Shown here: one piece after another, positions 1 to 18,199 of the stretch
How the letters are laid out: every line of letters begins with the position of its first letter
Position numbering within the stretch: the first letter of the stretch is position 1
DNA from: Paramacrobiotus metropolitanus
Lineage: Eukaryota; Tardigrada; Eutardigrada; Parachela; Macrobiotidae
Length of the DNA stretch: 64,000 nucleotides
Assembly (NCBI RefSeq): GCF_019649055.1
Contig: NW_026570389.1
Location: 154,710 to 218,709 of the forward strand
Direction of reading: 5' to 3'
The notes under the pieces: model-generated
What the model saw: the letters and a program-made list of their open reading frames with translations, nothing else
Database searches by the model: none
What the model was told of the DNA's origin: nothing
Made by a program: the position numbers and the translations under genes

Positions 1-19
1 GAAAAATCACGAAAGTAAC

Positions 20-781
20 GTGACGCTGCAAGGACGGCAGACCCAAAGGTCATCGCAGGAAGCAACTGCGAGGAAAGGTCACGAAAGAAACGTGACGCTG
101 CAAGGACAGCAGACCGAAAGGTCACCGCCTCAAACAGAGAGCGAGACAACGAGGAGGAGGAATTACTTCGCAAAGACAGTAGCGAGGTTAAAAGCCGGAG
201 ATTCGGAAGACGAGAAGTTCGTCGAAAAGACGTGGGAAGAAGACGGAATAACCGTGACAGTGCGACGCACACATGAAGACGGTCCAGATCGACCAAAATT
301 CTTCGAGCATATGAGAGAAACACTCCAGAAGAGAAAAGCTGCTGAGAAAGGTCACGAAAAGGTTGCGACAGCGCAAGGAGCGCAAGAGACCGAAAGGTCA
401 CCTCAAGAGAGAGTTGAAGAAGTGAAAGGTCACGAGAGACAGCCAGTGCAAGAGACTCAACAGTCACTGAAAGAGAAAGGACACGGTGAAGTCGCCGTAG
501 AACCGAAAGGTCAAGAAAGTAACTTGACTCTGCGAATGGCGCAGCAAACAGTGAAAGTTGGCGAAGGAGCACAGCAAGTCTCAGACGACTCTCTTGAATC
601 AGCAAATAAGCTGCAGCAAAAGATGGAGTGGCAAAGGTCACCTATAGACGGCATGGTATGTGGAAACAAGTTCCTCCGCCACAAAGGTCACCGCAAGATG
701 CGAGAATTTCCAGAGAAGCTTACTGGGAAGAAAGAGAGAAACAAGATTGGCGAGCGAGAAAGCATCTCGAGGAACTCGTGA
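20..781 (+). CDS. Charged low-complexity frame at left edge of the retroelement
   Basis: A 253-codon frame rich in Lys, Glu, Gln and Arg with no recognised domain; it runs on from beyond the window edge. Its sequence is dominated by KGHE- and ERSP-type words, which are translations of the recurring DNA word AAAGGTCAC in different frames. By position it belongs to the region upstream of protease, where gag normally lies, but no capsid or zinc-knuckle motif is visible. Function unknown. Confidence 0.5.
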   Translation: MTLQGRQTQRSSQEATARKGHERNVTLQGQQTERSPPQTESETTRRRNYFAKTVARLKAGDSEDEKFVEKTWEEDGITVTVRRTHEDGPDRPKFFEHMRETLQKRKAAEKGHEKVATAQGAQETERSPQERVEEVKGHERQPVQETQQSLKEKGHGEVAVEPKGQESNLTLRMAQQTVKVGEGAQQVSDDSLESANKLQQKMEWQRSPIDGMVCGNKFLRHKGHRKMREFPEKLTGKKERNKIGERESISRNS

Positions 782-3171
782 AAGCTTCCCAACCAAAGGT
801 CAAGGAATACCGAGAAGCAAAAGAGAAAATGGACGAAGAAAACCGTCAGTTTCATGAGAGAATTGTTAAGGGTGAATTGCCGCCGCAATATGGCGAGAAA
901 GTGCCTTTACAAAGGTCACCGAATGGCGGATTTTTTATGTCACGACCAGAAAGGTCATCGGACTTAGTGAAAACTCCACAAAGGGAAAGGTCATACGACT
1001 TTGCGCAAGCACTCCGGAATGACAAAGAAAGGTCACCGCCCAAAACTGACGGATTATCATCACAAGTTGAACCAACAGAAGAAATAAACAAGAAATTCAG
1101 AGAGTGGATGAAAGAAAACGATCACAAGATGATCGTCTATGAAAGGTCACCAGAAGAACTGGAAGACAAAGACGATGAGATGACCCTCGCGGATCGCATT
1201 ACGCAAGAGATAATTGAGAGGTTGCGAGAGAAACTGTCCAAAGATGAAAGGTCAAGATACGAAGTCATAAAAGAAGTGACGAAAGGTCACGAGAACGCAC
1301 AAGCGAAGGAGAAAATGTGCGAAGCATCAAAGGTCACGAATAACGCTGCGAAGGGGCAGGCGTGTGACTTGCAACCTGAAAGACAAATTCGGAAATTTTA
1401 TGATGCTAGGACTAACGTTCCGAAGAGGTTTGATCGGTTGAGTTCAAGAGACATCAACCAAAACGCGCAGGTGAAGGGGCTAATGCGCGAAGTTCCAAAG
1501 GTCACGGAAGATAATAACGCTGCGAAGGGGCAAGCGCGTGACGTACCATCCGGAAAAAGAATCCGAGAATTTTACGACGTAAGACCGGATGTCCCAAAGA
1601 GGATTGACAAGCTGTCTCCGATAAAGAATATGAACCCCCGATCAAATGATCCGATTCAAGTCCATTGCAGAATTAGAGTGTTGAAACTTCAAGATGGAAA
1701 CACGCCCAAGCGAATCGAAGCGCTGACTCATGAAGTTAAAGTGGGAAATGTAAAGGTCATGGCAATGTTGGATACAGGCGCAGAGACGTCTTTGATCTGC
1801 CAACAGTTCTGTGAAAGGAATGGCCTCCAGACTGTACCGCTACCGCCAAAGAGGACGGTGATGATCAAAGGAATCAGCGGAACCTCAGGTTTTCAAGTGA
1901 CGCACTATTGCGTAGCGCCAGTGACCTTACGAAAGAAAACAACTCAACACTCTTTCTACGTCAGACCAGCGTCAGATGACGTCCAGGTTCTGCTTGGATT
2001 TGACTTCCTTGCAAAGAAGTTCGTCTTAATAGACGGAGATGAAACATATGACGAAGACGCCGATGAAGATGAAGATAAGGAAAAAGATGATGAGCCGAAA
2101 TCCACTGCGAAAGTTAACGCAGGAAAGGTCACCGAACTTCAACCAAGGAATGAAGCGGGGCAAACGGCTATCCCAGTACCAGAGGCACAGGGGTCGAAAG
2201 GTCAACAGCAAAAAGAAACTGATGAAAAGCTAATCCCAGTACCAGAGGCACTGGGCAAGGAAAGGTCAAAAAGAACCGAAAGGTCACCAAAGCTGAAAGG
2301 AAGCAAAAGGTCACCAACCATGGAACAAATAAAGATTATGCAAGCTGAAGCACTGATCGCGAAGAGAGACGCATTAGTTCCGGGACTGGAGTGGTCAAAG
2401 CTAATCCCAGTACCAGAGGCACCGGGCACGAAAAGGGCTGAGCCCAGGAAAGAGCCGGGACTGATGAACAGTGACGAAAGAGCGTTATTCGACGAATTGC
2501 GGGAGAAAGCAATAGAGCAGTTGAAAGATTCACGCTCCCGAAAAGATAAACCAGAGCGTAGCTCACAAGCTACTTTCGAACCACGCTCTGCGGATAAAGA
2601 AATAGAAGTCATCGAACTGTCTTCGGACCACAGCGCCATCCAAATGGAATGTGACCGCGACTGGACGGACACGGAAGATGAAGGTGACCTTTGCGTCCAA
2701 CCGAAACAAATCGAGTGGACAGCCGAACAAAGGGCAACAGCGTGCGACCACGATTGGCGCGATGACCTTTCGAAAGCAAGACCGCAAGAGAAGTGCATCC
2801 AGTGCTTACAAGAAGCAAAACAAGATGACCTTTCGGAATGGCCGAAATGCAACGCTGCAATTGAAAGTCTCAAGAGAGGCGACTGGATCGAAACGAAGTC
2901 GATCATGAGGACGCTTCCAATGGAGCAGTTGCCAAAAGCAACTTACCTCTGGCAAAGATATCGCGAATGGTTGTCTGTAGTGAAAAACTACATAATCTCC
3001 AGAGGAAAATGGCTCCATCATTGGCAGCAAGAGGTCGACAACTACATCCCCGGTCAAGCGGATAAAAGTGATCCACATTACATTGACCCAGTATCTAAGC
3101 TCGATCAGGAACGGCGACGAGCTATGGAAGAAAACGAATTATGGGAAGCAGAAACAATCGAATTATTCTGA
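628..3171 (+). CDS. Retroelement frame with retropepsin-type aspartic protease
   Basis: This 847-codon frame has a charged, disordered N-terminal 360 residues. A retroviral-type aspartic protease follows: the catalytic DTGAETS begins near residue 382 and the second signature LLGFDFL lies near residue 455. Such proteases cut the element's polyprotein during particle maturation. After it come acidic stretches, three copies of an IPVPEA word, one FEPRSA word and a Trp-containing tail. AAAGGTCA boxes fall in all three codon phases (giving KGH, ERS or KV), and reversed boxes give DDLS or GDLC. How it is linked in translation to neighbouring frames is not clear; the family often uses read-through or frameshifting. 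Confidence 0.85.
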   Translation: MAKVTYRRHGMWKQVPPPQRSPQDARISREAYWEEREKQDWRARKHLEELVKASQPKVKEYREAKEKMDEENRQFHERIVKGELPPQYGEKVPLQRSPNGGFFMSRPERSSDLVKTPQRERSYDFAQALRNDKERSPPKTDGLSSQVEPTEEINKKFREWMKENDHKMIVYERSPEELEDKDDEMTLADRITQEIIERLREKLSKDERSRYEVIKEVTKGHENAQAKEKMCEASKVTNNAAKGQACDLQPERQIRKFYDARTNVPKRFDRLSSRDINQNAQVKGLMREVPKVTEDNNAAKGQARDVPSGKRIREFYDVRPDVPKRIDKLSPIKNMNPRSNDPIQVHCRIRVLKLQDGNTPKRIEALTHEVKVGNVKVMAMLDTGAETSLICQQFCERNGLQTVPLPPKRTVMIKGISGTSGFQVTHYCVAPVTLRKKTTQHSFYVRPASDDVQVLLGFDFLAKKFVLIDGDETYDEDADEDEDKEKDDEPKSTAKVNAGKVTELQPRNEAGQTAIPVPEAQGSKGQQQKETDEKLIPVPEALGKERSKRTERSPKLKGSKRSPTMEQIKIMQAEALIAKRDALVPGLEWSKLIPVPEAPGTKRAEPRKEPGLMNSDERALFDELREKAIEQLKDSRSRKDKPERSSQATFEPRSADKEIEVIELSSDHSAIQMECDRDWTDTEDEGDLCVQPKQIEWTAEQRATACDHDWRDDLSKARPQEKCIQCLQEAKQDDLSEWPKCNAAIESLKRGDWIETKSIMRTLPMEQLPKATYLWQRYREWLSVVKNYIISRGKWLHHWQQEVDNYIPGQADKSDPHYIDPVSKLDQERRRAMEENELWEAETIELF

Positions 3172-3210
3172 CAATTCCGAACGAATTACCTATGGAAAGG
3201 TCAAGGACGA

Positions 3211-4104
3211 GTGGTGATTTTCCCAATTGGACTCGGCACACCAGTGTACGAACTGTTCGGCCTTTACCAGGAATGCCTGAAGAAAGGAAGTTTGAAACCG
3301 TTCAACAAACAATGGATGAAGATCATGCAAGAAGTTCCTACGATCGTTGGCCAAGTGCCCGAACTAAAGGTCATGAGAAAGAGACGCCCACCAGGACCAT
3401 TCGGTTATCCTGGAAAGAAGAAGGTGACCTTTGCACCAGACCCAGATGGAGTCGAGTACCCCGAACGAGGAGGTGATACATGGTGCATGTATGAAACAAA
3501 ACCAAGCGATGACTGGGTCACAGAAGAGTTGATGGCAAATTGCGTCTTCGTCGGCGATAAAAGACCTAAAGGTCACGGCACAAGCGCCGTTCAAGAAGAC
3601 GGCACAAGCGCCGCAGAAGTGAAAGAGAAAGATAAAGATATCGGCACAGGCGCCGAAGAAGAAGCGAAAGAGCAAGAAAACGGCTCAAGCGCCGAAGAAG
3701 AACAAGACAAAGAAGATGTCGGCATAAACGCCGTTCAAGAAGACGTTCAAGAAGATGACGACGGGTCATCGTCGGCATACAAATTATCCCAGATGATTAA
3801 GGAACTGAACCAAGCGTTTCGGGATCAAGAAGCAGGAATCCCAGTAACAGAAGCAAAAAAGGTTCAAATGTCGCCAAACGAGAAGAAAGCAGCAGCGCTA
3901 GTGGCGTCACTCAAAAGGTCACTCGATGATGGTGAGGAACGGCCACCAGTCGAGAACGAAAGGTCACTCAAAGAGTTGCTAAATGAAAAAGAGCCAGAAA
4001 GGTCAGTTCCTAAATTCGATGAAAGGTCAGACCACGCAGATCGTGGCTCTCACAATACTTTCGAACCACGATCCGCTACCACACACGAAAAGAAGGAAAG
4101 GTAA
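3211..4104 (+). CDS. Acidic linker frame of the retroelement
   Basis: A 297-codon frame between protease and reverse transcriptase. It starts with a compact region containing Trp and Gly-Pro words. An acidic repeat region (nt 3,578-3,760) then has five variants of a Gly-Thr-Ser-Ala type word, and a Lys/Glu/Ser-rich end holds ERS words and one FEPRSAT word. No catalytic domain is recognised. In the family this position usually holds only a short linker, so the length is unusual. Confidence 0.5.
   Translation: MVIFPIGLGTPVYELFGLYQECLKKGSLKPFNKQWMKIMQEVPTIVGQVPELKVMRKRRPPGPFGYPGKKKVTFAPDPDGVEYPERGGDTWCMYETKPSDDWVTEELMANCVFVGDKRPKGHGTSAVQEDGTSAAEVKEKDKDIGTGAEEEAKEQENGSSAEEEQDKEDVGINAVQEDVQEDDDGSSSAYKLSQMIKELNQAFRDQEAGIPVTEAKKVQMSPNEKKAAALVASLKRSLDDGEERPPVENERSLKELLNEKEPERSVPKFDERSDHADRGSHNTFEPRSATTHEKKER
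3578..3760 (+). repeat. Degenerate GGCACAAGCGCC repeats
   Basis: Five imperfect copies of a 12-base word, GGC-N6-GCC, within the acidic linker frame, at uneven spacing and separated by GAAGAA-rich spacers. Each can form a very short GGC/GCC stem. They give the Gly-Thr-Ser-Ala type protein repeats. Confidence 0.6.
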
Positions 4105-4269
4105 CGAGCAAGAATCCGCGCAACGCGAGCTCATCCGAGGATAGCAGCACGAAACGGACGAAAGTCCAAGGAAACGGGCAAACCTCTGCCCGAGAAATCA
4201 AAAACGAAAAAACTTAGCTCTTCCAAGGATGAGGATGATGACATTTCAACGTCAAGTGAAGATGAAGGT

Positions 4270-6933
4270 GTGATGGAACAACCGAAAGAAGATCAAAGCA
4301 AAGGTCAAATGCTGCAAGAGAACGGTAGCAGCGAATCCGACTCGGACTGGTCGAGTACAAGTGGCGATTCAACCACTTCAGAAGATTCGGGAGTAGATGA
4401 CCTTTCTGAACAAGAAGACTTGATGGATCTTGACGAAGACGATGATAAAAATGATGAAAAAGAAAAGGAAATCGTCGTCGGAAGAATAAAAGTGCAGAGA
4501 GCAAGAATCCCTCAAGGGGCAATCAAGGTCTATAGCGATCAAAGAATCAAGATCAGACCGAATGTCTGCACACGCGTTAAAACTAAGATGGCGGAATACG
4601 CCCCAAGGACTCAAAAACTGATGTTCACGGCGACACTACAGAAGGATGTAGATGTCCAACCGTATACGGGAGTGACGGAACATAAAAGAAATCGATTCGA
4701 AATCGTCGTCGCTAACCGAAGTAAAAGAAGAATGGGAATTAGGAAGGGCCAATTCCTCGGTTACGTTGAACCTTACGAACACATGGAGAGCGTAAAGGTC
4801 AACGCGGCAGTAATCGCCGACGTACTTAATGATCCGAATGTCGACGCGAAAACGAAAGAAGAACTGAACGACATCATCGAAAGACTCAAGTTAGGACCAG
4901 ACCTAACTGAAGAGCAAAAGAACGATGTGCGAAATGCATTCTGGGAATTTTGGAAAGTCTTGCCGACGTCAAAGAAACCGTACGGCGATGTCAAGGGAGT
5001 AACGCACACCATTGACACAGCCGATGCAAGGCCAGTGAAGTGCAACCCAGCAAGAACTAGCTGGAAAGGTCGCGAATTCATTACGAAGCACATCGAAGAG
5101 ATGTTGCAGCAAGATGTGATTGAACCGTCCGATGCGGATTGGAGTTTCCCGGTCGTACTGGCCGCAAAGAAGAATGGTGATGGCACCATGGGAACAAGGT
5201 TCTGCGTCAATTACATTCAGCTGAACAAGCTTACGAAAAAGAACAATTACCCACTGCCGAATCCAGACGAACTGCTTGACGCATGCGCAGGAAACAAGTA
5301 CTACGGCAAGATGGACTTGCAAAGTGGCTTCTGGCAGATCCCAATGGATCCAGCCTCGAAAGATAAGACGACCTTCGTCACCCAAGATGGGATGTTCAGA
5401 TTTAAAAGAATGCCCTTTGGAGTCTGTAACGGGCCAGCGACGTTTCAGCTGTGCATGGATAAAGTTCTGTCGAACGCAAAGAGAATGGGATGCGTTTTCG
5501 GCTACATCGACGACGTTATCTTCGCAGGAAAGACCTGGGAGATTTTCATGCAGAATATGAGAAACGTCCTTCAAAGCTTAGTCGATGCAGGCTTTACAAT
5601 CAAGCCGACGAAGTGCGAATTCGGCATGCGCGAAATGGGATTCTTGGGGCACATCCTCAGTGAGAATGGTATCAGAATGGATCCTGAAAAGGTCATGGCA
5701 GTTTATGATCAGAAGAAACCGACAACTGAACGGCAGTTGAGGTCATTCCTTGGATTAACGAACTACTACAGGAAGTTCATCCTTGGATACGCGCAAAAGA
5801 CGGCGCATCTTTATGAACTGCTAAGACACGATAAGAATATCAAAAGAGATTGGTCAGAAGTCCACGACCAAGAATTCAATGACCTTAAAGAAGCATTGTG
5901 CAAGGATCCAGTGCTGAGGAAATTCGACCCGGCAAAGCCGACAGTGATCGAATGTGACGCATCAAAGGAAGGGATTGGTGCAGTCTTGTCCCAAGATGGA
6001 CACCACATTGCATACGCAAGTCGCGTTTTGCATGGAGCTGAGAAGAATTACGGAGTAACGGAATGGGAATGTCTGGCAGTAGTCTTCGCCGTCAGAAAGT
6101 TCAAGTCGTACATCGACTACTCCGAATTCACCGTAAGAACGGATCATCAAGCGTTGACGAATCTCCTAAGGTCAGAGACGAATAAGTCGGGAATGAACCC
6201 AAGATTGACAAGATGGGCATTGGCATTGCAAGGTCACCGTTTCAAGATCGAGTATAAGCCAGGCAAATACTGCGACAACGCAGATGCACTGTCAAGAACG
6301 CCGATCGACGGTCCCACTTGCAATGAAGAAGAATATGACGAAATCCCGAACTTCGAAGATTACAAGAATGAGCTGAACAGAGAAGAGCCTCCGATTGAAG
6401 TTTGGCAACTCTTCGTGCAATTGGCAGAAGATAGAGAAGAAAGGCTCAAAGCCGACATGAGAAGGGCATTGTCGGAGGAAAAGAATCCTCAGCTCGCTGA
6501 AGAAGTCGCAGAGCGTAATTCAAGAGCTATTTTCGAACCCCGCTCTGCTACCAAGATAAAGGTCAACCGAGTGAGGAAAGAGATGTCAGAGCAAAAAGAT
6601 GCAAAGGTCACGAAACTTGGTCAGAGAACGGCAGACCAGAACGACCTTTCTGAAGCAGAATTCCTTTCCGAGTACATACCGGATGAGTGTCCAATCAGAC
6701 TGCTAAGATTTCCGAAAACGATCGAGAAAGGTCACAAGCCTCTTCCAAGATGCAAGGTCATCACAGATTGGAATGAACTCAGTACTGCGACAGTTCGCAT
6801 CGTCAATCTTCAAGGAGACGAAGAAGAAGAGGATGACTCAAATTTGCAACTTCGGAACAAGCAGTTGAAGGATCCGCATCTAGCGATGATAATCGATGAA
6901 TTGGAGCATCTGCAAGACGCAGACAAAAGGTGA
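4270..6933 (+). CDS. Reverse transcriptase and RNase H of the retroelement
   Basis: An 887-codon frame. After an acidic Ser/Asp-rich N-terminus comes a Ty3-type reverse transcriptase: a PLPNPDELLD word, KMDLQSGFWQIPM (first catalytic Asp), MPFGVCNGPATFQ, and the YIDD active site at about residues 412-415, then KCEFG and LGHILSENGI. RNase H follows with ECDASKEGIGAVL near residue 560, a central Glu in VTEWECLAV, and RTDHQAL near residue 623. It copies element RNA into DNA and removes the RNA strand. The catalytic core is nearly free of AAAGGTCA boxes while its flanks carry them, as expected if protein function limits where boxes can sit. The C-terminal 200 residues are low-complexity with one FEPRSAT word. 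Confidence 0.93.
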   Translation: MMEQPKEDQSKGQMLQENGSSESDSDWSSTSGDSTTSEDSGVDDLSEQEDLMDLDEDDDKNDEKEKEIVVGRIKVQRARIPQGAIKVYSDQRIKIRPNVCTRVKTKMAEYAPRTQKLMFTATLQKDVDVQPYTGVTEHKRNRFEIVVANRSKRRMGIRKGQFLGYVEPYEHMESVKVNAAVIADVLNDPNVDAKTKEELNDIIERLKLGPDLTEEQKNDVRNAFWEFWKVLPTSKKPYGDVKGVTHTIDTADARPVKCNPARTSWKGREFITKHIEEMLQQDVIEPSDADWSFPVVLAAKKNGDGTMGTRFCVNYIQLNKLTKKNNYPLPNPDELLDACAGNKYYGKMDLQSGFWQIPMDPASKDKTTFVTQDGMFRFKRMPFGVCNGPATFQLCMDKVLSNAKRMGCVFGYIDDVIFAGKTWEIFMQNMRNVLQSLVDAGFTIKPTKCEFGMREMGFLGHILSENGIRMDPEKVMAVYDQKKPTTERQLRSFLGLTNYYRKFILGYAQKTAHLYELLRHDKNIKRDWSEVHDQEFNDLKEALCKDPVLRKFDPAKPTVIECDASKEGIGAVLSQDGHHIAYASRVLHGAEKNYGVTEWECLAVVFAVRKFKSYIDYSEFTVRTDHQALTNLLRSETNKSGMNPRLTRWALALQGHRFKIEYKPGKYCDNADALSRTPIDGPTCNEEEYDEIPNFEDYKNELNREEPPIEVWQLFVQLAEDREERLKADMRRALSEEKNPQLAEEVAERNSRAIFEPRSATKIKVNRVRKEMSEQKDAKVTKLGQRTADQNDLSEAEFLSEYIPDECPIRLLRFPKTIEKGHKPLPRCKVITDWNELSTATVRIVNLQGDEEEEDDSNLQLRNKQLKDPHLAMIIDELEHLQDADKR

Positions 6934-7029
6934 AAGTTTGAGACGCATTACCAGTTATGGAACGGCATACTGTATCGCGTCAAAGACAAAAATGAAAGAC
7001 TTGAACGGACGTATGTTGTACCGCTGCCA

Positions 7030-8946
7030 ATGAGAAGGGCAATCATCCATGCACTGCATGATGAAAAGGCAGCAGGTCATCTCGGCTTCGAAAAGACGTT
7101 GGCTGCAATCAGGCTCAGATATTACTGGGACCGAATGAGCACGGATGTAAAGAACTACATCCTGGCGTGTCAAGGATGTCAATTCAGAAAGACGCCGAGG
7201 AAATGTCCGCCTGGAAAGCTCCAAGAAATTAAAGTCGGACATCCATTCTTCAGAGTTTATGCGGATCTGAAAGGACCTTTGCTCCCAACGAAGAAGAAGG
7301 GATACAAGTACATTGCGGTCTTCATCGACCAGCTAACGAAGTACGTCATAGCAGAGCCAATGAAAACGGCTACGGCGAAAGAATTTGCAAAGGTCTTTGT
7401 GAAGCACGTAATTCTGGTGCACAGAGCGCCACATATTCTCCATACGGATCGCGGAAGACACTTCACAGCTGAAGTCTTGAAAAAGGTCACCAACGTTTTC
7501 AAAATAAAACACACGTTTGGAATGGCGTATCATCCCGAAGGTCAAGGACAAGTCGAAAGACAGATGCAGACGATCAGCGATGGACTGTCTCAATACATGA
7601 AAGCCGGGAATGAAAGGAAGTTTAACAAATATCTTCCTTACGTCGTATCGGGAATGAACCGCGTTGTACATGCGACGACGGGATATTCAGCATATTTCAT
7701 GCTGTACGGCAGAGAAATGACCATGCCAGAAGACGTCGTTACAAAGACGAACGTTCCCGACGATTACGGTACTCCAGACGAATGGGTGGAGACCATGAAG
7801 AAGAACTTGACCTTTTCAGAGGAAGTTGCGAAGTGCAATATCAAAGACGCCTATGAAAGGCATGCCGAAATTTACAATAAAAAGAAGTCGGAACCGGAAT
7901 TCAAAGTCGGCGACCGCGTCTTGATCAGACTTCCAAAAGACACGAAGCAAGGAAAGAAAGAAAATCAAGCGGACTTTAAGAAGAAGTACGACAAAGTCTG
8001 GAAGATCCTTAGCTTCCCGAGACCGAACGAAGTTGAAGTCATCGAACTGGAAGCAACGAAAGAACCGGACGTAAGAGTCGTCTCAGTCGACCGATTAAAG
8101 CACTGGCATCCACCGTTGCCAGATCAAGAACATGAGAAAGGTCACGCGGAAAGAGCAACGGTCGAGAATGAAAAGTCACAACCTACTAAGGAAGTAGCAG
8201 ACCGCAATTCTCATACTTTCGAACCACGCACTGCTACCTGGATAGCAGGACAAGGATCTTCAAATACTCTCGAACCACACTCAGTGCCAGACCAAGAAGA
8301 GAAAGGTCAAGCGGCAGAGGAGCCAAAAGAGGCACAAGCGCCAAAAGAGGCTGAAGAGCCGAAAAAGAAAAAGAGAGGACGACCAAAGAAAGAAATCAAG
8401 GATTTCGAAACGGCAGTCACTGTGAAGTTGAACCAAGAAGCGGGAAACCTTGCCGCCGTGGAAGAGAATGAAAGGTCACGGTCTGTTGAAACGCTCGCAG
8501 AACGTGATTCTCAAATTATTTTCGAACCACGCCCTGCTACCAAGGCTTTACTCCACGCAGACCGTGGTCTTCAAAACACTTTCGAACCACGCTCAGCTAC
8601 TGGAAAAGATGACCTTTCAAGAATGGAGCAAATTAAAGCGGTCAAGGAAAGGGCAGACCGACTTGGCCAAGATATTGCCAAAGCAATTGAAGAACGAAAG
8701 GTCAAGAAACCAAAAAAGAACCTGAAGCCCACTCCGGAACAAATTCTGAGGGGCGAAGTCGATACAGAAGAGGAAGCCGACAAAGGATTACTTGATCGGA
8801 TAACAAAAGGACGGAAAAACATAAATCCAAAAATCAGACTCATAGGAGTTTACGATATTATGACGGGAGATTGGGATGGCATAAAGGTCATCAGGAATAA
8901 ACCTGCTAATCGGAGTTATTTTCGTTCTCGTAGTAGGTTTCACTAA
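7030..8946 (+). CDS. Integrase of the retroelement with AT-hook-bearing tail
   Basis: A 638-codon frame. The N-terminus has an HHCC zinc-binding module (HALHDEKAAGHLG, then ACQGC). The catalytic core has its first Asp in YADLKG (about residue 77), its second in HTDRGRHF (about 138) and its Glu in GQVERQ (about 175). A beta-rich module with KVGDRVLIRLP and VDRLKHW matches the GPY/F type C-terminal domain. The protein joins element DNA to host DNA. The long tail is unusual: it holds four FEPRSAT-type words and a RGRPKK AT-hook near residue 449, which could bind AT-rich DNA in the minor groove. Confidence 0.92.
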   Translation: MRRAIIHALHDEKAAGHLGFEKTLAAIRLRYYWDRMSTDVKNYILACQGCQFRKTPRKCPPGKLQEIKVGHPFFRVYADLKGPLLPTKKKGYKYIAVFIDQLTKYVIAEPMKTATAKEFAKVFVKHVILVHRAPHILHTDRGRHFTAEVLKKVTNVFKIKHTFGMAYHPEGQGQVERQMQTISDGLSQYMKAGNERKFNKYLPYVVSGMNRVVHATTGYSAYFMLYGREMTMPEDVVTKTNVPDDYGTPDEWVETMKKNLTFSEEVAKCNIKDAYERHAEIYNKKKSEPEFKVGDRVLIRLPKDTKQGKKENQADFKKKYDKVWKILSFPRPNEVEVIELEATKEPDVRVVSVDRLKHWHPPLPDQEHEKGHAERATVENEKSQPTKEVADRNSHTFEPRTATWIAGQGSSNTLEPHSVPDQEEKGQAAEEPKEAQAPKEAEEPKKKKRGRPKKEIKDFETAVTVKLNQEAGNLAAVEENERSRSVETLAERDSQIIFEPRPATKALLHADRGLQNTFEPRSATGKDDLSRMEQIKAVKERADRLGQDIAKAIEERKVKKPKKNLKPTPEQILRGEVDTEEEADKGLLDRITKGRKNINPKIRLIGVYDIMTGDWDGIKVIRNKPANRSYFRSRSRFH

Positions 8947-8960
8947 CGATAGATCGAGAA

Positions 8961-9599: not shown

Positions 9600-9629
9600 C
9601 CACACTCAACTGGTAGTATCCCATGGGCA

Positions 9630-12029
9630 GTGATTAACGCGCCGAGATTTCAAGATCCAGTGACGGAAACGGCCCCACAATACAACATTATCGTTGACCC
9701 AAAGGTCACTCTGACGGAAGAAGAAAAAAGGTCCATCGCGGAATTCAACGCGAAATGCCGCGAATTCGTTGAGACCCATAATGAAATCAACGAAAACCAG
9801 TTCCAGTACAGAACTGCAAGAAAGAGTCACAAGCTCGACAGAGGATTGCACCTGGAACTGAAGCTCACTAAACATAAAGCAGAAGAACTTAGAAAAGAGT
9901 TGGGCGTGGAAATCCGAACATTGAAATCCGTCACGCCTGTACTGAAAGACAAAGAGTGGCCAAGCGCAGTTGAAACGATACTAACTTTCTTAAATCTAAT
10001 CCCGGGAAAACACCAAGAAGAAGAAGAAAGAGGAGTTAAAACCCCGGCAGAGGAAAGTCCCACCGCCGAGGAGCGAAAGGTAAAGAAAACGAAGAACGAG
10101 GCTTTCGAACCTCCGAGTGACCCGTTGACAGCAAGAGAAAGGGAGCTGTTGAGGGAAAGAGCTAAACTCGACAGGGAATTGATGGACATAAGGTCACGAG
10201 CGACTTCAGCGGTTGGATCGTCACAACCCAGCCCGGCTAGAGAAAGACAGCCGAAGCAGAAAGGTCAAACCGGTCAGCAAGTTCAGACGAAAGGTCATCC
10301 TGGTGGAAGCACGCGAAGGGGCGTAGCTCGAGTCGCAAAATGCAGATCATACACCAGAGTGTTCCGCGTAAAGAAGAAATTCGAAGGAGTGGTCAGCGCC
10401 TTTTTGGTCCAAATGGACACGAACGAACCAATTCCATCGTTGGCAGAAGGAATCCAGCAAGAAAGATTCGTCGAGATGTGCAAAAAGGCGAACGAACAAG
10501 TGGAAGAGAAAATCGCGGAGCTATTCCCTTCAGAACGAAACAATCCACATACGATCGGACGAATTCTCATGGAATTATTGAGGGACACCGCATTCCACGA
10601 AAGGGCATACATTATGGTGACGATCGACTTCGACGGAAAAGTTGAGAAACAACTATATGACCCTCATGGAACGAAGATCGATATGCGATCACATAGCGCA
10701 TATCCTGCATCAGGTGCGAAGGGGCACGAAGCAGGCGAAGAAGAAAACGTTTCAGAAGACGAAGGTCAAGAAGAGAGTCAAGCCCAACCTTTCAGAGAAA
10801 CAATCTGCAGGACTTTGAAAGTGAGGTATTACTTGGCGAATGGCGAAGAAGGATACGTCAATGGATTTGTCGTCGATCCAGTCACGATGATGCCGATCCC
10901 GACTGCAGGGACGAATGCCTCGCCTGAAGAAATCGAATGGCAGACACAAAAAGCATATAAGGATCTGCAAAAGATGCTCAGTCTCATACCAGAAGAACAA
11001 AGGAACGATGTGGCGGAAAACGTCAGATGCGTATTAAGCATCCTGCAGCAAAGAGCTGAAGAAGACAAGGCCAATATTCTGGTGTTGATGAAAGATGATC
11101 AAGGGAAGTTCAAATCGTTGTTCAACTCGAAAGGTCAAGGACTTAACTTCCCTCCCCAGTACCAAGTTCATCCGGCGGAGGAAGGTCACGCCGAGCTGTA
11201 TAATCAGCCCCCAGCAGAGGCCATGGACGAAGAAGAAGTACAAGAGCGAGAATCGCCTTGTAGAAGATTGGAATATAAATTTATGACAGAAGATGGAAGA
11301 GAAGGGATACTGAAGATCGAAGTGGTAGATCCGGCCACTGGAAAGATGATGGCGAATGAAGGTCTCACGCAAGAGCAAGAAGATCACGAAACGGCGAAAC
11401 TTCTTCAGGAAATCGAGGAGGTAATACAAACTCTCCCGGACGAAGAAGAAAGAGACGAATTCGAAACCTTGACGGAAATTTTGGTCAATGTAATGATGCC
11501 AAGAGCAAGGCGGGATCAAGCATATATGCGCTTAACTCATGTTGATCCGATCCACGGAGAGGTGTATAAACAGCTCTACACCGCGGATGGCGAAGCACTC
11601 AGTAACCTGGCGTCGGCGAAAAATAACAAGAAAACCGCAGAAAAGAGTGAGCGGGAAATAGCAAAAGAAAAACCGAAAGGTCATGCCGTAAAGCAAGAGG
11701 TGACAGAAGAATCCAAAGGTCACCAGGTTAAAATCGAAGAAATACCGAAAGGTCATCAAGTTAAAACAGAAACGCAAGAAGACGCGAAAGGTCACGAACA
11801 GAAAGTAGTGACCCCGAGCCGAAAAGAGGAAGAAGTTTTGGAAAAAGAAGAAGAAGAACTAGAAAAGAAAAAGAAACCAAGCAAATCTCCCAAGACTGCG
11901 GCACGAAAAGGTGGAGCCGGTAAACAATTAAAGCTTATGGGAGTTATGGCATCGAAAAGGCCAAAACCGGATTCGGACTCAGAACCGGAGAAGATGGTCA
12001 TCGACGCGCAACCTGGTTCATCACAGTAA
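9630..12029 (+). CDS. Protein with a triplicated domain, second extra frame
   Basis: A 799-codon frame that begins without a nearby ATG. A helical N-terminal 150 residues precedes a charged linker. Three copies of a domain of about 110 residues lie at residues roughly 241-355, 394-505 and 545-655. Each has a beta-like start (RVKKKF, KVRYYL, LEYKFM), a VDP word (copies 2 and 3), a long helical middle and an end resembling GKVEKQLYDPHG (copies 1 and 3 close, copy 2 diverged). The tail is Lys/Glu-rich with four KGH words, all from AAAGGTCA boxes. I recognise no family. Internal triplication suggests repeated binding of one ligand, protein or nucleic acid. Confidence 0.65.
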   Translation: MINAPRFQDPVTETAPQYNIIVDPKVTLTEEEKRSIAEFNAKCREFVETHNEINENQFQYRTARKSHKLDRGLHLELKLTKHKAEELRKELGVEIRTLKSVTPVLKDKEWPSAVETILTFLNLIPGKHQEEEERGVKTPAEESPTAEERKVKKTKNEAFEPPSDPLTARERELLRERAKLDRELMDIRSRATSAVGSSQPSPARERQPKQKGQTGQQVQTKGHPGGSTRRGVARVAKCRSYTRVFRVKKKFEGVVSAFLVQMDTNEPIPSLAEGIQQERFVEMCKKANEQVEEKIAELFPSERNNPHTIGRILMELLRDTAFHERAYIMVTIDFDGKVEKQLYDPHGTKIDMRSHSAYPASGAKGHEAGEEENVSEDEGQEESQAQPFRETICRTLKVRYYLANGEEGYVNGFVVDPVTMMPIPTAGTNASPEEIEWQTQKAYKDLQKMLSLIPEEQRNDVAENVRCVLSILQQRAEEDKANILVLMKDDQGKFKSLFNSKGQGLNFPPQYQVHPAEEGHAELYNQPPAEAMDEEEVQERESPCRRLEYKFMTEDGREGILKIEVVDPATGKMMANEGLTQEQEDHETAKLLQEIEEVIQTLPDEEERDEFETLTEILVNVMMPRARRDQAYMRLTHVDPIHGEVYKQLYTADGEALSNLASAKNNKKTAEKSEREIAKEKPKGHAVKQEVTEESKGHQVKIEEIPKGHQVKTETQEDAKGHEQKVVTPSRKEEEVLEKEEEELEKKKKPSKSPKTAARKGGAGKQLKLMGVMASKRPKPDSDSEPEKMVIDAQPGSSQ

Positions 12030-12068
12030 GATACTGAAGATGAAAAGGAGAAAGGTCAATCGCGCAAC

Positions 12069-14111
12069 GTGATGGAGGAAGCGATGAGGATGCAACCAGT
12101 ATACGCATCAACGATGAAAGAACGAAAAGAAAAGAGTGAGAAAGAGAAGAAGAAAAGGGATACTTCCGTTGAGTCAGCTAAATCTGAAGCAAGTGCAGTG
12201 ACAGCACCATCCCCGAAGCCGAAGAAAGAGACGCAAAAGAAAGGTCAACAGAAGATCATGCCAAAAGCAGATCCCAGCTTGGCCGAATATATGGACGCGC
12301 AAAAGAAACCAAAGGTCACGCGGAGGAACAGTCTGATCGGAAGAGTCGATCCGGCTGACATTGTCGATTGGCAACCGCCGGGAGGAGAGAGCAATCTCGA
12401 CTACTCAGACGACGAAAGTTTCTTCCTCGAAGACGATCACGAGAAATTGACGATCGAAGAAGTTGACGAGATAGTGCTGGGCGCTACTGCCGAATGGGGC
12501 AAAACGAAACAATCCGTCACGTCAATGTTCAGGAGTGACCTTAGATCATATTGCAACGAAAATGAGATACGGCTCACAAGAAAGAAGTACGACGTCCTCC
12601 TGGAATACGCAAGAAGCACGGGGAAGATCCTGCAAAAGCATCCAGGATATGGAGTTAAAGCAAAGTTGTTCATCATGGGCAACAACAACGAACGAAAGCT
12701 GGCCACTGCAAACGCAGACATAAGAGAACGGATTGATCGTGCCATTACCGGAATGTGCAGCCCAACCGGCACTACGAAGCACCGAATGGCTCAATCCATC
12801 AACGGTGTCTGGAGCAAAGAGAAGGGAAATGCTTCAGAAATTGAAAGGTCACTTGAGGCGCCACTGACGCAGATGGTCAAGGAAGGGATACTCCACACTA
12901 CGAATCCCCACAAAGGTGTGCCCATCAGATACAGCTCAGTAAACGCTGTTATGGAAGAACTACGAAAGTATCCAAAAGAAGAAACCAGTGAAGACATGAC
13001 CGTCATTGTGGATCCAAGGATCGATGCGGCAAGTCCCATCCTGAGCCACATTCAGCTCATGAGTGAGCAAAAGCCAACCTCGTCAAAGAAGGAGGAAAAG
13101 AAGACAGAGGAAGTGGCAATCGAAGAAGTCGTCGTTGAGGTGGCTGACGAAGACGAGTCGAAGTCGAATGCCCCGAAATCGGCAGCGGAAGCCATTGCAA
13201 TGGTAGGACCGAAAACGTCTTCAGTCCAAGAGGCACTTGCTCTGGTGCGAAGTAAAAAGGAAAAGGTCACCGAGGGAGGTAGCGCCGAAAAGATGTTGCC
13301 AACAGCAAAGGATGTCCAGATTATCCATAAAACGACATCAGCGTTGGTGCCGCTCAAAACTGCACACGAAAGATTAGTGCAAAGCCTGAAAGATCAACGT
13401 GCGGCAGAAACGACTAAAGGTCATCCGACTGTAGAAAGTCCAGCCGGGGCGGAAGGTCACCCGAGCTCGAGCCAAGAAAAGGCGCTAGCTGCCTCAAGTT
13501 CAAGTGCAGCGGACCCGGCAAAGTTAATGCCACCCCCTCAGAAGGAAGAAAAAGAGCCACCTTTTGAACTCTTAGAGGAAGAGATGGTAGAGGGCAAGCC
13601 GGCGTATATGACAATTGATGAATCGAACGAAAGCAATGAGGCATGGATGACAATCTACGCCGCAATCGGTGCTGCTCCGACAAGGGAAATGAATAAAGCT
13701 GAGATCACGAAAGCCGTCAGCGATGCTGGGATCAGCAGAGGCCAAGTCAACAAAATCATGAAAAGGGCGTATAAAGAAGGACGAACTGGAGTACGTTACA
13801 CTAATACGAACGTACCAGTTCATTACATCCCTCTAGCAGAGGAACAGCGGAAGCAAAGAGCGAAGCCGAATGGTCAGGCATGGAAAGACGTCCTAGTTAA
13901 TGACGCTTTACAGAATATCGGAGGAACGAATGGCATGACAATTGAAGATATCGCAAACTACATGGCTGTCCAATATGATTCGGGCCTGGAAAATATGAGA
14001 GGCGATCGAATAAGGATCCAGAATGCACTGGATAGCCTGGTCAAAGAAAAGACGATCACAATCGAAAAGAGAAACGGAGTTGATCGTTATGACTGGATCG
14101 CAAAAGCTTAA
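12069..14111 (+). CDS. Multi-winged-helix-like protein, third extra frame
   Basis: The first ATG is at 12,072. The 680-codon frame has four segments with the helix-turn-helix-wing rhythm of winged-helix domains, at about residues 135-200, 215-300, 520-595 and 600-680. The last is clearest: MTIEDIANYM, then IQNALDSLVKEKTI, then a wing-like KRNGVDRYDW. Similar patterns occur in linker-histone globular domains and other DNA-binding winged helices. The middle (residues 310-510) is Ala/Ser/Lys/Glu-rich and likely disordered. This is the best candidate in the element for a sequence-specific or structural DNA-binding protein. Assignment rests on pattern only; a structure prediction would decide it. 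Confidence 0.6.
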   Translation: MMEEAMRMQPVYASTMKERKEKSEKEKKKRDTSVESAKSEASAVTAPSPKPKKETQKKGQQKIMPKADPSLAEYMDAQKKPKVTRRNSLIGRVDPADIVDWQPPGGESNLDYSDDESFFLEDDHEKLTIEEVDEIVLGATAEWGKTKQSVTSMFRSDLRSYCNENEIRLTRKKYDVLLEYARSTGKILQKHPGYGVKAKLFIMGNNNERKLATANADIRERIDRAITGMCSPTGTTKHRMAQSINGVWSKEKGNASEIERSLEAPLTQMVKEGILHTTNPHKGVPIRYSSVNAVMEELRKYPKEETSEDMTVIVDPRIDAASPILSHIQLMSEQKPTSSKKEEKKTEEVAIEEVVVEVADEDESKSNAPKSAAEAIAMVGPKTSSVQEALALVRSKKEKVTEGGSAEKMLPTAKDVQIIHKTTSALVPLKTAHERLVQSLKDQRAAETTKGHPTVESPAGAEGHPSSSQEKALAASSSSAADPAKLMPPPQKEEKEPPFELLEEEMVEGKPAYMTIDESNESNEAWMTIYAAIGAAPTREMNKAEITKAVSDAGISRGQVNKIMKRAYKEGRTGVRYTNTNVPVHYIPLAEEQRKQRAKPNGQAWKDVLVNDALQNIGGTNGMTIEDIANYMAVQYDSGLENMRGDRIRIQNALDSLVKEKTITIEKRNGVDRYDWIAKA

Positions 14112-14507
14112 AGAAAAAGAGCAGTGTGGGAGGAAGGTCCACCACAAGAGAAAGAAGCACTCAGAAGAAAATGAAAACGAGCAGAGCGCAATTCTCAATT
14201 TACTTTCGAACCACACTCTGCAAGAAGAGTAGAATTAGCGAAGGGGCTAATTAATTTAGCGAATGGGCTAAGATGGGAAAAGTCACCCACAGTATTGAGA
14301 AAGGTCATCAAAAGGGCAATGAAAAAGTCTCAGCTCAGCACCAGAATAGCCTAATTACCATAGGCGTAAAATAGGCGTTGAGAATGGTTACTCAGTAAAG
14401 GTCATAGGACTTACAGTGTTTGAGATTACAGATTAATCAACGGAAATGGCTGAACGGAGCCAACCCAGCCAAACGGCAAAGAAAGGACAAAGACCTCCGT
14501 TGAAAAG
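14112..14507 (+). other. Non-coding gap inside the retroelement
   Basis: About 400 bases with no convincing frame. It holds one copy of the FEPRSA hairpin (14,181-14,221) and two AAAGGTCA boxes (14,300 and 14,397), plus two similar words around 14,230-14,270 (TTAGCGAAGGGGCTAA and a variant). It shows that the hairpin and boxes are kept where no protein is encoded. Confidence 0.6.
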
Positions 14508-15710
14508 GTGACGGGGGATCCGATGACGAACTTCAATGAAACCTGCCCAGATTGTAGACGCAACAACATCTTGGCAAATGAACGCTATCCTTGCTGGGAA
14601 TGTGTGTGTGCCGTGCCGAACCAGGCATTTGTCGTACCCGAAGAAGCAAAGCGGGGGAATATCGATGTGTTTCGACATTTGGTCACGGGACACACATGGA
14701 AGAAACTATCACCGGAAGATCGGATGATACTTGAAGATAGATATCGAATGTGGGTAGGACGCAGAAATGGCTGGGATATTACCCTCGAACCTCCGAAAGA
14801 TGCGGAATCGGATGCGTTCAGAAAGAAGTTCGAGGAAGACACGGCGAAAATGGTTCAAGAAAAGCGCGAAGAAGATAGAAAGCGCTTGGAAGAGAAGCAG
14901 AAAGCTGCGGCAGAGAAGGGTTTAGCCGATGCAGTTAAAGGTCACGGTGGACTTGGAATACCTGTCCCGCTCGCAATACTAAAGAGACCCGATGAAGAAG
15001 AAGCGGCTGTGATCAGACATGCACTGATACAACAGATCGACGTCATTTTGCAAGACCCCCTCGCCGTTACGAAAGACGAATATACGATCTTCCTGCAAGA
15101 AAAGGTCAACTTGTCGAAAGGAGGCAGACCATCCCAGGTCATCAAGATCGCAGTCGAGGAACGCATCGACAAAATGCGAAAATTCCGGAAGCAAGAAAAG
15201 GATGTTATCCAGGCGCTTCAGAATTTCAAGAAAGACGAGTTTAAACGTCCACGATTGCCTCCGAGAGATGACAGAAATCGTGGATATGAAAGGTCATCCG
15301 ACCGTCCTAGAGAGGAAAGGTCACGAGAAAGGTCACGAGAAAGGTCACGGGACTTTGACCGTTACGGCAGATATGATGGATACGCGAAGGACACGCGTAC
15401 TTCAGAGCAGAAGAGAAGGGATGAAGAGCGCATTCGACGCGAAAGAGAACAAAGAGAAAAGCGTCGTCGCGAAGAAGCCGAAGACAAGCGATTGGCGGAA
15501 GAATACAGGAAAATCAATGAAACCTGTAATCGGCAACAAGAACAGGCCGCGAAAGATGCGCAAAGTAGTGAAATGAATCAGAGCAGAGAAGGGCGAAGCG
15601 AAGGCTCGGGCAAATCAACTTCATCAAAGGGCCCGTATGACGACGAATGGATGCGAGATACACTGCATTCCGGGGAATGGGAATTTGGAGACAGCAGGTA
15701 CAACAGTTAA
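14508..15710 (+). CDS. Cys-motif and Arg/Ser-rich protein, fourth extra frame
   Basis: The frame opens at 14,508; the first ATG is at 14,523. Near the N-terminus CPDC and CWEC form a C-x2-C-x12-C-x2-C arrangement typical of a small zinc-binding module. A helical middle follows. Residues about 255-380 are dominated by Arg, Glu, Ser and Asp with repeated RERSR words, partly from three AAAGGTCA boxes spaced 12 bases apart (15,316, 15,328, 15,340). The composition resembles RS-rich RNA-binding proteins. The last box (15,709) overlaps the end of the frame. No family assigned. Confidence 0.6.
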   Translation: MTGDPMTNFNETCPDCRRNNILANERYPCWECVCAVPNQAFVVPEEAKRGNIDVFRHLVTGHTWKKLSPEDRMILEDRYRMWVGRRNGWDITLEPPKDAESDAFRKKFEEDTAKMVQEKREEDRKRLEEKQKAAAEKGLADAVKGHGGLGIPVPLAILKRPDEEEAAVIRHALIQQIDVILQDPLAVTKDEYTIFLQEKVNLSKGGRPSQVIKIAVEERIDKMRKFRKQEKDVIQALQNFKKDEFKRPRLPPRDDRNRGYERSSDRPREERSRERSRERSRDFDRYGRYDGYAKDTRTSEQKRRDEERIRREREQREKRRREEAEDKRLAEEYRKINETCNRQQEQAAKDAQSSEMNQSREGRSEGSGKSTSSKGPYDDEWMRDTLHSGEWEFGDSRYNS

Positions 15711-15755
15711 AGGTCATCCAGTTCCGAAAGTCACCGTACACCCAAGAGTCCGCGG

Positions 15756-17177
15756 ATGAAGTCGATAGTCCACTCTGTTTGTTCAACATTCAAGTCAGCT
15801 GAGAAACCAAGAGATTCGGCAAAGCAAGACGAGCAAATGGAATGCAGTCCGTCATCCTCAAACGTCATTGAAGTTCACGCTGATGAGGATATGCCACCGT
15901 CAAGACGGAACATCATTTTCGACATTGACCGTCAGTTGACGAGCGCAGAAACGGCGAGTAATGCACCGCCAGAGTCAGAAGCAGAGAAAGGTCATCCGAA
16001 AGGTCAAGTTCAGACTCGGATCTCGCAGAAACAGCCTCTCCGTACTATCGAGCTAGTGTTCGAAATGAACGACATTGCGGAACAGACCAAAGAGATTTGT
16101 CGTTCAGTAGGCATCGAGCCGGAGGATAAGGAAGAGACCGATAAAGTCTATTGGCTCCTTATGAATTTACGCCAGGTGATGGTGGATTGTGAATACGCGA
16201 AGGAGTACGAATACGGTCAATGGGAAGACCTGATCATTACGCAAGAGTCAGCTAACCTCAATTACTTCCCAACGAGAGAAAGCGGACTTGTCAGCCTGAT
16301 TGACCTTAGTCTCTTGGAAACTGCACTGGACACGCCAGACCCGACTGGGATGACGCAGTTCAATTATAGAGACATTAAAGAAAGAAGACTCCACGTAGCG
16401 CAGTTTGTGTTACGCCATGTAAATCCGGCATTGCGACTCCTCGCAGGAAGGGCTGCGTTAGGATTATCAGTTCAACCGGATTCCCCGCCGGACTATAAGG
16501 TCACGATCCAAAAGATCTTCGCAACAAGGTTGTGCCATTACGAGACGCATCACCAACTGAGAAAGAGCGCTCAGAGAGGAAATGAAATCCCGCCGGCATT
16601 AACCGCGCAGGTCATCAAATTGGGAATGCCCATCGCAAACTTCAACTCTTCCGAGACGGTGAAAAGGCAGCTCAAGGATTACCAAAAAGCGATGGCTAAT
16701 GACGAACAGCTGAAACGTCAGGCACAGCTTCATGCTCATCGGTGCGCAGAACGGATAAGACGCACAATGGGGACAAAGTTCATCCAGCCATCTGACTTTG
16801 TCTATGATTTCATCCAAGAGATCAGTGTCAACAAGAGCAGTTACCGTCCAGAACTTGAGAAGCGACCCCAAAATAACGAGATGGGAAAACGCGGACGGCG
16901 GAATCAACAGCTGCACATGGATTATGTTGACCTTTGTCAAAGATTGGCAACCAATCCACATGATGAGAAGTTGAAAGCGCAAACGATTGACCTTCGGGAA
17001 CACTTGATACATATTCAGCGTCGGCGCAATCGCAACCGAAATAGTAGCGCAAGCAGCCGGAGCGAAGGAGACCAGCTGCAGGAGAGGCAAAGGGAACCTC
17101 GAGATCGAACGTCGGATCAAAACGAAAAACAACGACGTTTCGATCGGAACCGCGATAATGGTTCAAGTGATCAGTGA
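15756..17177 (+). CDS. Helical protein with basic tail, fifth extra frame
   Basis: ATG start; 473 codons. A disordered N-terminus of about 100 residues precedes about 280 residues predicted by eye to be mostly helical, with Leu/Ala-rich helices such as FVLRHVNPALRLLAGRAAL. The last 80 residues are Arg/Asn/Ser/Gln-rich (RRRNRNRNSSASSRS, then RDRTSDQNEKQRRFDRNRD). A helical body with a basic disordered tail is the general layout of nucleic-acid-packaging proteins, but there is no sequence match to gag that I can see. Boxes lie at 15,987, 15,999 and, reversed, 16,928. Confidence 0.6.
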   Translation: MKSIVHSVCSTFKSAEKPRDSAKQDEQMECSPSSSNVIEVHADEDMPPSRRNIIFDIDRQLTSAETASNAPPESEAEKGHPKGQVQTRISQKQPLRTIELVFEMNDIAEQTKEICRSVGIEPEDKEETDKVYWLLMNLRQVMVDCEYAKEYEYGQWEDLIITQESANLNYFPTRESGLVSLIDLSLLETALDTPDPTGMTQFNYRDIKERRLHVAQFVLRHVNPALRLLAGRAALGLSVQPDSPPDYKVTIQKIFATRLCHYETHHQLRKSAQRGNEIPPALTAQVIKLGMPIANFNSSETVKRQLKDYQKAMANDEQLKRQAQLHAHRCAERIRRTMGTKFIQPSDFVYDFIQEISVNKSSYRPELEKRPQNNEMGKRGRRNQQLHMDYVDLCQRLATNPHDEKLKAQTIDLREHLIHIQRRRNRNRNSSASSRSEGDQLQERQREPRDRTSDQNEKQRRFDRNRDNGSSDQ

Positions 17178-17199
17178 TGACATTTAGGGCATCACTGAT

Positions 17200-17675
17200 G
17201 TGCTAGTTACGGCCATCAGTCGGCAGCACAGAGAATGGTACTCTAAGGTAATGTATCAGGGCGGAAGGACGCATCTTATTAAACTGTCATATCGTTCGTG
17301 TCTTGTTGTTTGCAGAGTTTTGTTTCAGAGGATCAATGCGATCTTACACTTGGGGAGTTACGGTGGTCAACCGGCCCTCAAAAGAAGAAGGTTACGGCGA
17401 CAACCGGCCTTCTTCACTTCAACTTAACGTCACTTAAGGGTGTAGTTGCGGCCTGCTGAGTCGGCACACTCTGGCGGAATGATAGAAGCCACAAGGGTGA
17501 AAAAACGAGTTCAAGAAAAAGTGAAGAAATTGTCAGATAACGAGGTTAGGGCGACAAAATATGTCGGCCTCAAGAGTGGAGTTACGGTAATCAATCGGCC
17601 CTCTAACCTGGTAAGGAAGAAGAATAAACAGTGCGCGTCATTGGAAGGGCTACGGCGTCACACCGGCCCTCTTCT
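17200..17675 (+). repeat. Seven-hairpin array with conserved GTTACGG..TCGGC core and changing stems
   Basis: Just after the last frame seven units share a core GTTACGG-N-CGGC (17,200-17,229; 17,350-17,381; 17,384-17,415; 17,437-17,472; 17,542-17,571; 17,574-17,605; 17,642-17,675). Their outer arms differ in sequence yet pair: GTGCT/AGCAC, TTGGGG/CCTCAA (one G-U), GAAGAAG/CTTCTTC, AGGGTGT/ACACTCT (one G-U), GAG/CTC; the last two are imperfect. Inside the core CGGY and RTCG/ACCG can pair again. Paired change with G-U pairs allowed suggests a selected RNA structure. Confidence 0.75.
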
Positions 17676-17728
17676 GCACTTATAAAAATAATGGATGTGC
17701 GACTTAAGAAAACGAAGAAAAAGAATGA

Positions 17729-18110
17729 TGACCTTTACAAGGGAGGCAAGCAAAAGTGCTTGAAAGCCAACAACATCGGCTAAGTTCCTCCATGACCTTT
17801 AACGCTGATTTCATTATGGAGGAAGGATGACCTTTTGGGATCGTCACTGCCCAAATACGTCGCACATCAGAAGATAATGGATGACCTTTGAGAACTTCAC
17901 TGCTCAAGAGAGTCATCAAGAAAAAGAGAATGACCTTACCAGGGAGGAAGCAATCAAGCTTGTCTTCAAGACGTCCCTCCATGACCTTTACGGAATTCCA
18001 GTATTACGAAAGACGTACGTTTGATACGCACTCAATCGAAAGATGAAGAATCAGTATTCGAAAAGTCGTACGATTGATGCGCACCTTATTCCTAAAAGCG
18101 GATCTCAATT
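17729..18110 (+). repeat. Reversed boxes joined to small hairpins in the element's 3' region
   Basis: Five TGACCTTT boxes occur here, most joined to a hairpin. One lies in the loop of a perfect 9-bp stem TTCCTCCAT/ATGGAGGAA (17,785-17,824). Two run into TTTGGG/CCCAAA (17,834-17,855) and TTGAG/CTCAA (17,888-17,907), whose loops both contain TCACTG. Another precedes CAAGCA/TGCTTG (17,747-17,762). A directly repeated segment of about 34 bases (near 18,000 and 18,050) with a CGTACG centre follows. Confidence 0.65.
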
Positions 18111-18199
18111 GTGATGATAAAGATTGCTCACAGAGCGGAATGGGCCAAAGCGGATACGGTTGACAGGACCCAGTGACCTTCACGAGTCGGAGGATCCTA

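Follow-up and report, generated by a model that had tools for sequence, protein, structure and literature searches.

What keeps a single eight-letter DNA word in place throughout a retrotransposon, within its genes and outside them? The question is raised by a 64,000-nucleotide stretch of the 170-Mb genome of the tardigrade Paramacrobiotus metropolitanus (contig NW_026570389.1, C169:154710-218709), referred to here as the window. Its left part is occupied by a Ty3/gypsy-type long terminal repeat (LTR) element of about 19.4 kb, most of whose length, up to the end of the 3′ LTR, lies in the window; the 5′ end of the element is at C169:154066, 644 bp to the left. Written through this element is the word AAAGGTCA, referred to here as the box, which is under strong purifying selection on nucleic acid, within genes and outside them.

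Number and placement of the boxes

Between window positions 1 and 18408 the box occurs 69 times forward and 13 times in reverse, first at 45 and last at 17982–17989, and this exact recount agrees with the roughly 82 exact copies (69 forward, 13 reversed) in 18 kb given in a preliminary description of this DNA. The 5′ leader left of the window adds three forward boxes and no reverse box, and the whole 64-kb window contains 94 in both orientations. Boxes span the whole internal region and stop at the LTRs. The densest cluster, of 25 forward boxes (45–2313, plus strand), lies behind the 5′ leader and runs through the start of the first open reading frame (ORF1); beyond these 2.3 kb behind the 5′ LTR the density is about 3.6 per kb. 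Further along ORF1 (2685–8890) boxes are found in both orientations at sites homologous in relatives, seven of them reverse (2685, 2763, 2826, 3425, 4398, 7808 and 8610). The ORF2 region (8961–17177) carries 25 forward boxes and one reverse box, and in the 3′ untranslated region all five are reverse (17729–17989, minus strand), the homologous places in the box-free copy L034 carrying other letters. Boxes had also been claimed in a non-coding gap and over the end of a frame, and both are there: two forward boxes (14300–14404) lie between open frames (gap 14112–14453), and one forward box (15709–15716) covers the stop codon (15708–15710) of an open frame.

None of the chance models used reproduces these numbers. 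Shuffling the 64 kb 100 times with dinucleotides preserved gives a mean of 2.5 copies and a maximum of 6, and a second-order model of the element predicts 2.1 forward and 0.14 reverse boxes (0.85 and 0.10 with boxes masked); the excess claimed earlier therefore stands, with the accompanying expectation of about 0.5 proving somewhat low. The 839 other permutations of the word (840 in all) average 0.79 copies in the element, and the reverse-complement permutations 0.11, both means including words that overlap boxes. Inside the frames there are 67 forward and 8 reverse boxes, numbers not approached in 2000 synonymous-codon shuffles (means 8.3 and 0.27, maxima 18 and 3). Forward boxes occupy every reading phase (8/15/14 in ORF1, 14/6/5 in ORF2), none with nearly all copies, so that the box ignores reading frame, as first described, and the flanks have no common sequence. 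Regular spacing was considered and rejected: the largest box-free gap in the examined stretches of 14 copies (929 bp) is not significantly small (P 0.11), although eight gaps exceed 740 bp, more than random placement predicts (P 0.0012).

Conservation of the boxes among relatives

The element family and its relatives are represented by at least 144 reverse transcriptase (RT) matches in the genome, and 10 kb around the RT was compared for 20 further copies from among these places. Thirteen of the 20 are boxed, with 31–56 forward and 4–10 reverse boxes each. Together with the window copy they make 14 boxed copies in two clades, A and B, of about 75% DNA identity, in which the box sites are homologous and the surrounding letters differ.

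At third positions of codons encoding the same amino acid, clades A and B agree in 278 of 284 cases within forward boxes and 119 of 121 within reverse boxes, versus 10320 of 21538 (48%) outside, with seven B copies as anchors and three A copies unconditioned; these counts come from 21 pairs of related copies taken together and are not independent, and the agreement in single pairs is 30/32 and 33/33. Codons and places without good alignment were left out of the conservation counts. Matched for codon, the expectation for B boxes is 0.52 (the same codons elsewhere) against 0.98 observed. Read in the opposite direction, from A boxes into B, agreement is lower (386/466, expected 0.47), some A boxes being clade-specific. 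As whole words, 133 of 169 box 8-mers are kept between the clades, as against 10.5% of other 8-mers. The conserved footprint is 8 bp and conservation drops immediately at the box edges, in a set of sites retained only with at least six of eight letters agreeing, which favours the box interior. The shuffles, the phases and the third-position identity (98% versus 48%) thus uphold the earlier proposal that selection or copying works on nucleic acid rather than on a repeat in the protein, and at synonymous sites neutral decay does not fit the boxes of two diverged boxed clades.

Two sister copies, L022 with no box and L019 with four, are free of this constraint. Compared with L022, the same boxes agree at 112 of 244 third positions (0.46, expected 0.51), and none of the 25–33 boxes per anchor is kept. 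No substitute word stood out in 10 kb of L022. Active avoidance of the box in L022 and L034 need not be invoked, since frame shuffles predict about 1.25 boxes where none is observed. The five distant copies L027–L031 have no box either, and in a tree with these as outgroup L019 and L022 fall between the two boxed clades (support 97/98), implying either one gain of boxes followed by loss or two gains, but the AU test is compatible with one clade of boxed copies (p-AU 0.09). That some boxes are present in only one clade suggests that gain went on after A and B had split.

Candidate binders of the boxes

Forward boxes outnumber reverse boxes 69 to 13 (5.3), near the ratio of about 7:1 (7.1) predicted from composition only. 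The forward excess follows from the A-rich strand, and the selecting agent seems not to read box orientation. Both orientations share one rule in their flanks: at the base after the box (+8, in the box frame), G stands in 4% of the 97 site clusters with forward boxes and in 0% of the 33 with reverse boxes; at the next base (+9), C stands in 41% and 51%, respectively. Orientation blindness and this shared flank rule make a double-stranded DNA site the simplest and best-fitting reading of the boxes, and probably the right one.

The box is identical to the NR4A site (NBRE), which bears out what the preliminary description had said of an NR4A/HR38 site; the NBRE is published as AAAGGTCA, and NR4A receptors bind it either as monomers or as homodimers (PMC7901948). 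An NR4A gene with a conserved DNA-binding domain is present in the host on C45, its exons matching an NR4A domain at 24/26, 37/46 and 18/19 residues, including CEGCKG and RGRLP. We lean, if lightly, towards a host factor as the binder of the boxes; that this factor is NR4A itself we would put somewhat short of even.

Our favoured explanation, to which we give nearly even weight, is that the boxes form a distributed array to which a host nuclear receptor of NR4A/HR38 type binds as a monomer. It builds on the nucleic-acid constraint, the 8-bp footprint, the orientation blindness, the identity with the NR4A word and the host NR4A gene. The word followed by a non-G base, and often then by C, would be a double-stranded DNA site arrayed along the element; each box would be bound singly, as a monomer site; and receptors would dock along the integrated element, most densely just behind the 5′ LTR, where the bound array could serve as an enhancer and anti-silencing platform. 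We infer both the binding of the receptor and its effect in raising transcription or keeping chromatin open.

Two other protein binders could account for the same DNA-level evidence, and we consider each of them unlikely. The first is encoded by the element: a DNA-binding protein of its own, for instance the one with tandem winged helices in ORF2, might bind the boxes on double-stranded cDNA or on the integrated copy. Its conceivable uses, no likelier than the binder itself, are self-coating or marking, nuclear import, a shield from self-integration and the steering of the element's own transcription. This proposal gains from boxes that fill the internal region and end at the LTRs, and from the linker-histone-like winged helices of ORF2 (13620–14096, plus strand; PF00538, E 1.4e-5), a candidate DNA binder of the element. 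It suffers because the winged-helix protein is encoded by boxed and box-free copies alike, including L034, which encodes the same proteins without a box; because the winged-helix parts of clades A and B are only about 33% identical while their boxes are the same; because the box is a known host-receptor word; and because some box clusters lie outside the element family. In a structure model of this region (pLDDT about 52–79) the best H1 match is weak (TM 0.78, E 0.07), and a structural search with the model returned no match at E ≤0.001.

The second, of similarly low probability, is another host DNA-binding protein, whether a different monomeric nuclear receptor, of the FTZ-F1/HR39 or ERR type, or a protein with an insulator or architectural role. 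The 63 zf-C4 exon matches in the host genome offer candidates. The sites of FTZ-F1 and ERR have C at the base before AAGGTCA; in the boxes A prevails at this base, the loosest of the word, in 69 of the 80 forward AAGGTCA cores and in 13 of the 20 reverse ones, which speaks against such receptors.

An RNA code, by which forward and reverse boxes pair in the element RNA for compaction or packaging, or are read by a packaging protein, is weaker than the double-stranded DNA site, disfavoured and improbable. Both orientations exist, so that 8-bp duplexes are possible, and extended pairing would also yield a common flank rule. Forward near-misses are rich in the wobble-compatible changes A>G (76 observed, 17.9 expected) and C>T (24, 3.8), with G>A (28, 29.9) and T>C (8, 5.3) given for comparison; the reverse near-misses (G>A 1, T>C 1, A>G 35) lack the wobble pattern expected under pairing. 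The conserved reverse boxes (119/121) are left unexplained by any reader of single-stranded sense RNA, and the orientation of leader boxes differs between copies, the C97 copy having eight reverse and no forward boxes, the opposite of the window-copy leader (three forward, none reverse). Local RNA structure was tried as a common context and rejected: forward boxes are 0.507 unpaired against 0.549 with shuffled flanks (p=0.011, a small effect), and reverse boxes show no difference.

A protein repeat, codon bias, tandem slippage or neutral copying is scarcely credible and, for the array as a whole, refuted, since against the true tandem repeats with boxes in the leader and a few other places stand the shuffles, the phases, the dissimilar flanks, the codon-matched conservation (0.98 versus 0.52) and the sharp box edges.

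Across the genome AAAGGTCA is found 21195 + 21367 times (42562), versus 7593 + 7929 (15522) for the reversed word. Pairs on the same strand with 0–30 bp between them number 1305 + 1347 (2652), versus 30 + 26 (56). Both excesses speak in favour of the proposed NR4A/HR38-type array. Among the 100 pairs listed, all on C1, 69 have an RT match no further than about 15 kb away, 15 belong to a cluster at 2197–2212 kb and 16 lie outside.

Several observations weigh against the array for an NR4A/HR38-type receptor. Of the 16 outside pairs, ten belong to repeats, either tandem or within proteins (L038, L039, L044, L045 and L048), one (L047) resembles a fragment of a boxed frame, and only five (L040–L042 and L046) may be regulatory. 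Two of these loci, L040 and L041, are paralogous, the only two such loci by DNA search, and look putatively non-coding; each has four boxes, with C or T as the next base and C after it. Their box positions agree in 32 of 32 letters, which speaks for the array, but with the whole stretch 82–86% identical the shared boxes are only mildly telling. More than 80 sites are far beyond the need of a promoter, and the 3′ LTR contains none. The long open frames of L022 and L019, despite zero and four boxes, indicate that the family does not need them, and the A-to-G and C-to-T excess of the forward near-misses is predicted by RNA pairing as well.

In a wider and tentative form, which we think rather unlikely, the whole internal sequence, genes included, would serve one sequence-specific double-stranded-DNA-binding protein as a scaffold, no more than ~900 bp separating one site from the next. 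If true, this scaffold would be an address code independent of protein coding and of orientation, with sites still gained after the clades split and with no counterpart in sister lineages of the same genome, and it would add a new layer of element biology, the self-marking or coating of an entire element and not of its promoter. The array makes it testable how far one DNA-binding protein shapes a selfish element's whole sequence. The sisters with no or few boxes in the same genome are a natural experiment from which the exact site can be read together with its flanks and tolerance, box-free controls included.

The element, its surroundings and known systems

The element body in the window, including the 3′ LTR, runs from 1 to 18734 on the plus strand. 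Its LTR pair (L009:9357-9682 and window 18409–18734, plus strand) is 326 bp long and 99.7% identical, and an (A)GCAA repeat, judged by eye, stands on both sides of it and may be a short target-site duplication. By its LTRs the window copy is recent, though its frames are interrupted by in-frame stops. All coding features are on the plus strand. ORF1 (610–8946; stops at 3169, 4102 and 6931 in the window copy) encodes a retroviral-type aspartyl protease (1732–2013; PF13975, E 2.4e-9), the reverse transcriptase (5176–5658; PF00078, E 7.3e-27), RNase H (5851–6231; PF17917, E 4.6e-33, and PF17919, E 1.5e-31) and an integrase with zinc-binding and core domains (7030–7536; PF17921, E 4.2e-19, and PF00665, E 3.8e-11). 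This order, with the LTRs, is that of Ty3/gypsy elements. Neither a gag capsid nor a zinc-knuckle matched Pfam in the ten window frames scanned. The RT region has 5969 protein matches across many animals, many of them of Ty3/gypsy type, 120 of which are listed at 34–46% identity.

ORF2 (8961–17177) is a single-frame region of about 8 kb, interrupted by stops at 9597, 12027, 14109 and 15708, the third of them followed by a gap that extends to 14454. By eye, its translation has three look-alike stretches of about 110 residues each (9630–12026), with no Pfam match. Its C terminus folds poorly from one sequence (mean pLDDT 42), and a database search with it found three proteins, all from P. metropolitanus, the best 82% identical over 78% of the query. 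The C97 copy has little space for ORF2 and carries an extra coiled-coil frame (L013:2-1648, minus strand) between the 5′ LTR and ORF1, absent from the window copy; this frame of 549 amino acids contains nine forward and five reverse boxes in 1.65 kb.

Directly after the 5′ LTR is TGGTTCAAGGCTGACCC (L009:9683-9712), a predicted primer site overlapping a TGACC-CAAA-GGTCA inverted repeat in which the first box lies. A second dispersed motif of about 50 nucleotides has pairable ends, GCAGAGCG...CGCTCTGC, around TTTCGAACC, often with TACCA at the end; its copies lie at 2549–2598, 4034–4083, 6506–6555, 8213–8238, 8264–8289, 8495–8544, 8555–8604 and 14179–14228. It is also present in L019 and L022 and absent from L027–L031, its pairing covaries in part, and we take it to resemble a tRNA acceptor/T-arm. 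In the 3′ untranslated region (window 17930–18005, and L034) boxed and box-free copies alike keep GGGAGG/CCTCC pairs, possibly hairpins, next to TGACC words. An Rfam scan of the window and L009 gave no match at the gathering score.

Adjoining the 3′ LTR is a 61-nucleotide inverted repeat (18731–19202; 92% complementary, arms 350 nucleotides apart), so the element seems to sit in or next to another repeat. The host part of the window (20746–63347) has 12 boxes, where about 1.8 are expected from the whole-window rate; the next base is C in 11 and T in one, and several are paralogous coding sites in Ig-like genes. On C1, L038 (C1:1543400-1548000) is a DNA-transposon-like repeat of 4.6 kb with inverted ends of about 480 bp, 92.5% identical, in each of which a 19-bp tandem creates a box pair.

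Short words scattered through genes under DNA-level selection are familiar from bacteria as Chi and DNA uptake sequences. Those words are cellular and bacterial, whereas the box lies in one animal retroelement family. Among the papers listed in literature searches on AAAGGTCA, AAAGGTCAC, tardigrade retrotransposons, the P. metropolitanus genome and nuclear-receptor sites in retrotransposons, no title or abstract beginning describes this array. The NBRE, for its part, is the same 8-bp word, known from host promoters and not known as a distributed array.

A related case is the Drosophila gypsy insulator, in which the 5′ UTR packs 12 Su(Hw) sites into 340 bp (PMC2374998). In both, an LTR element carries a known or candidate array of sites for a host protein, with its highest density behind the 5′ LTR. 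The tardigrade element differs in its word and in having more than 80 sites over about 18 kb, which face either way and continue through coding sequence as far as the 3′ end, and its boxes do not form a compact 5′ UTR cluster of Su(Hw) type. Sireviruses (PMC2829016) have up to 32 palindromic boxes, mostly CGG-CCG, in the LTRs and before env. They share with the tardigrade element a short, high-copy motif peculiar to some LTR-element lineages; unlike theirs, its word is non-palindromic, absent from the 3′ LTR and inside genes. Known host-factor sites in retroelements lie in LTRs and 5′ leaders and number a dozen to a few dozen. The literature searches turned up no counterpart to a non-palindromic word kept more than 80 times through coding sequence, with about 98% synonymous conservation against a background of about 48%.

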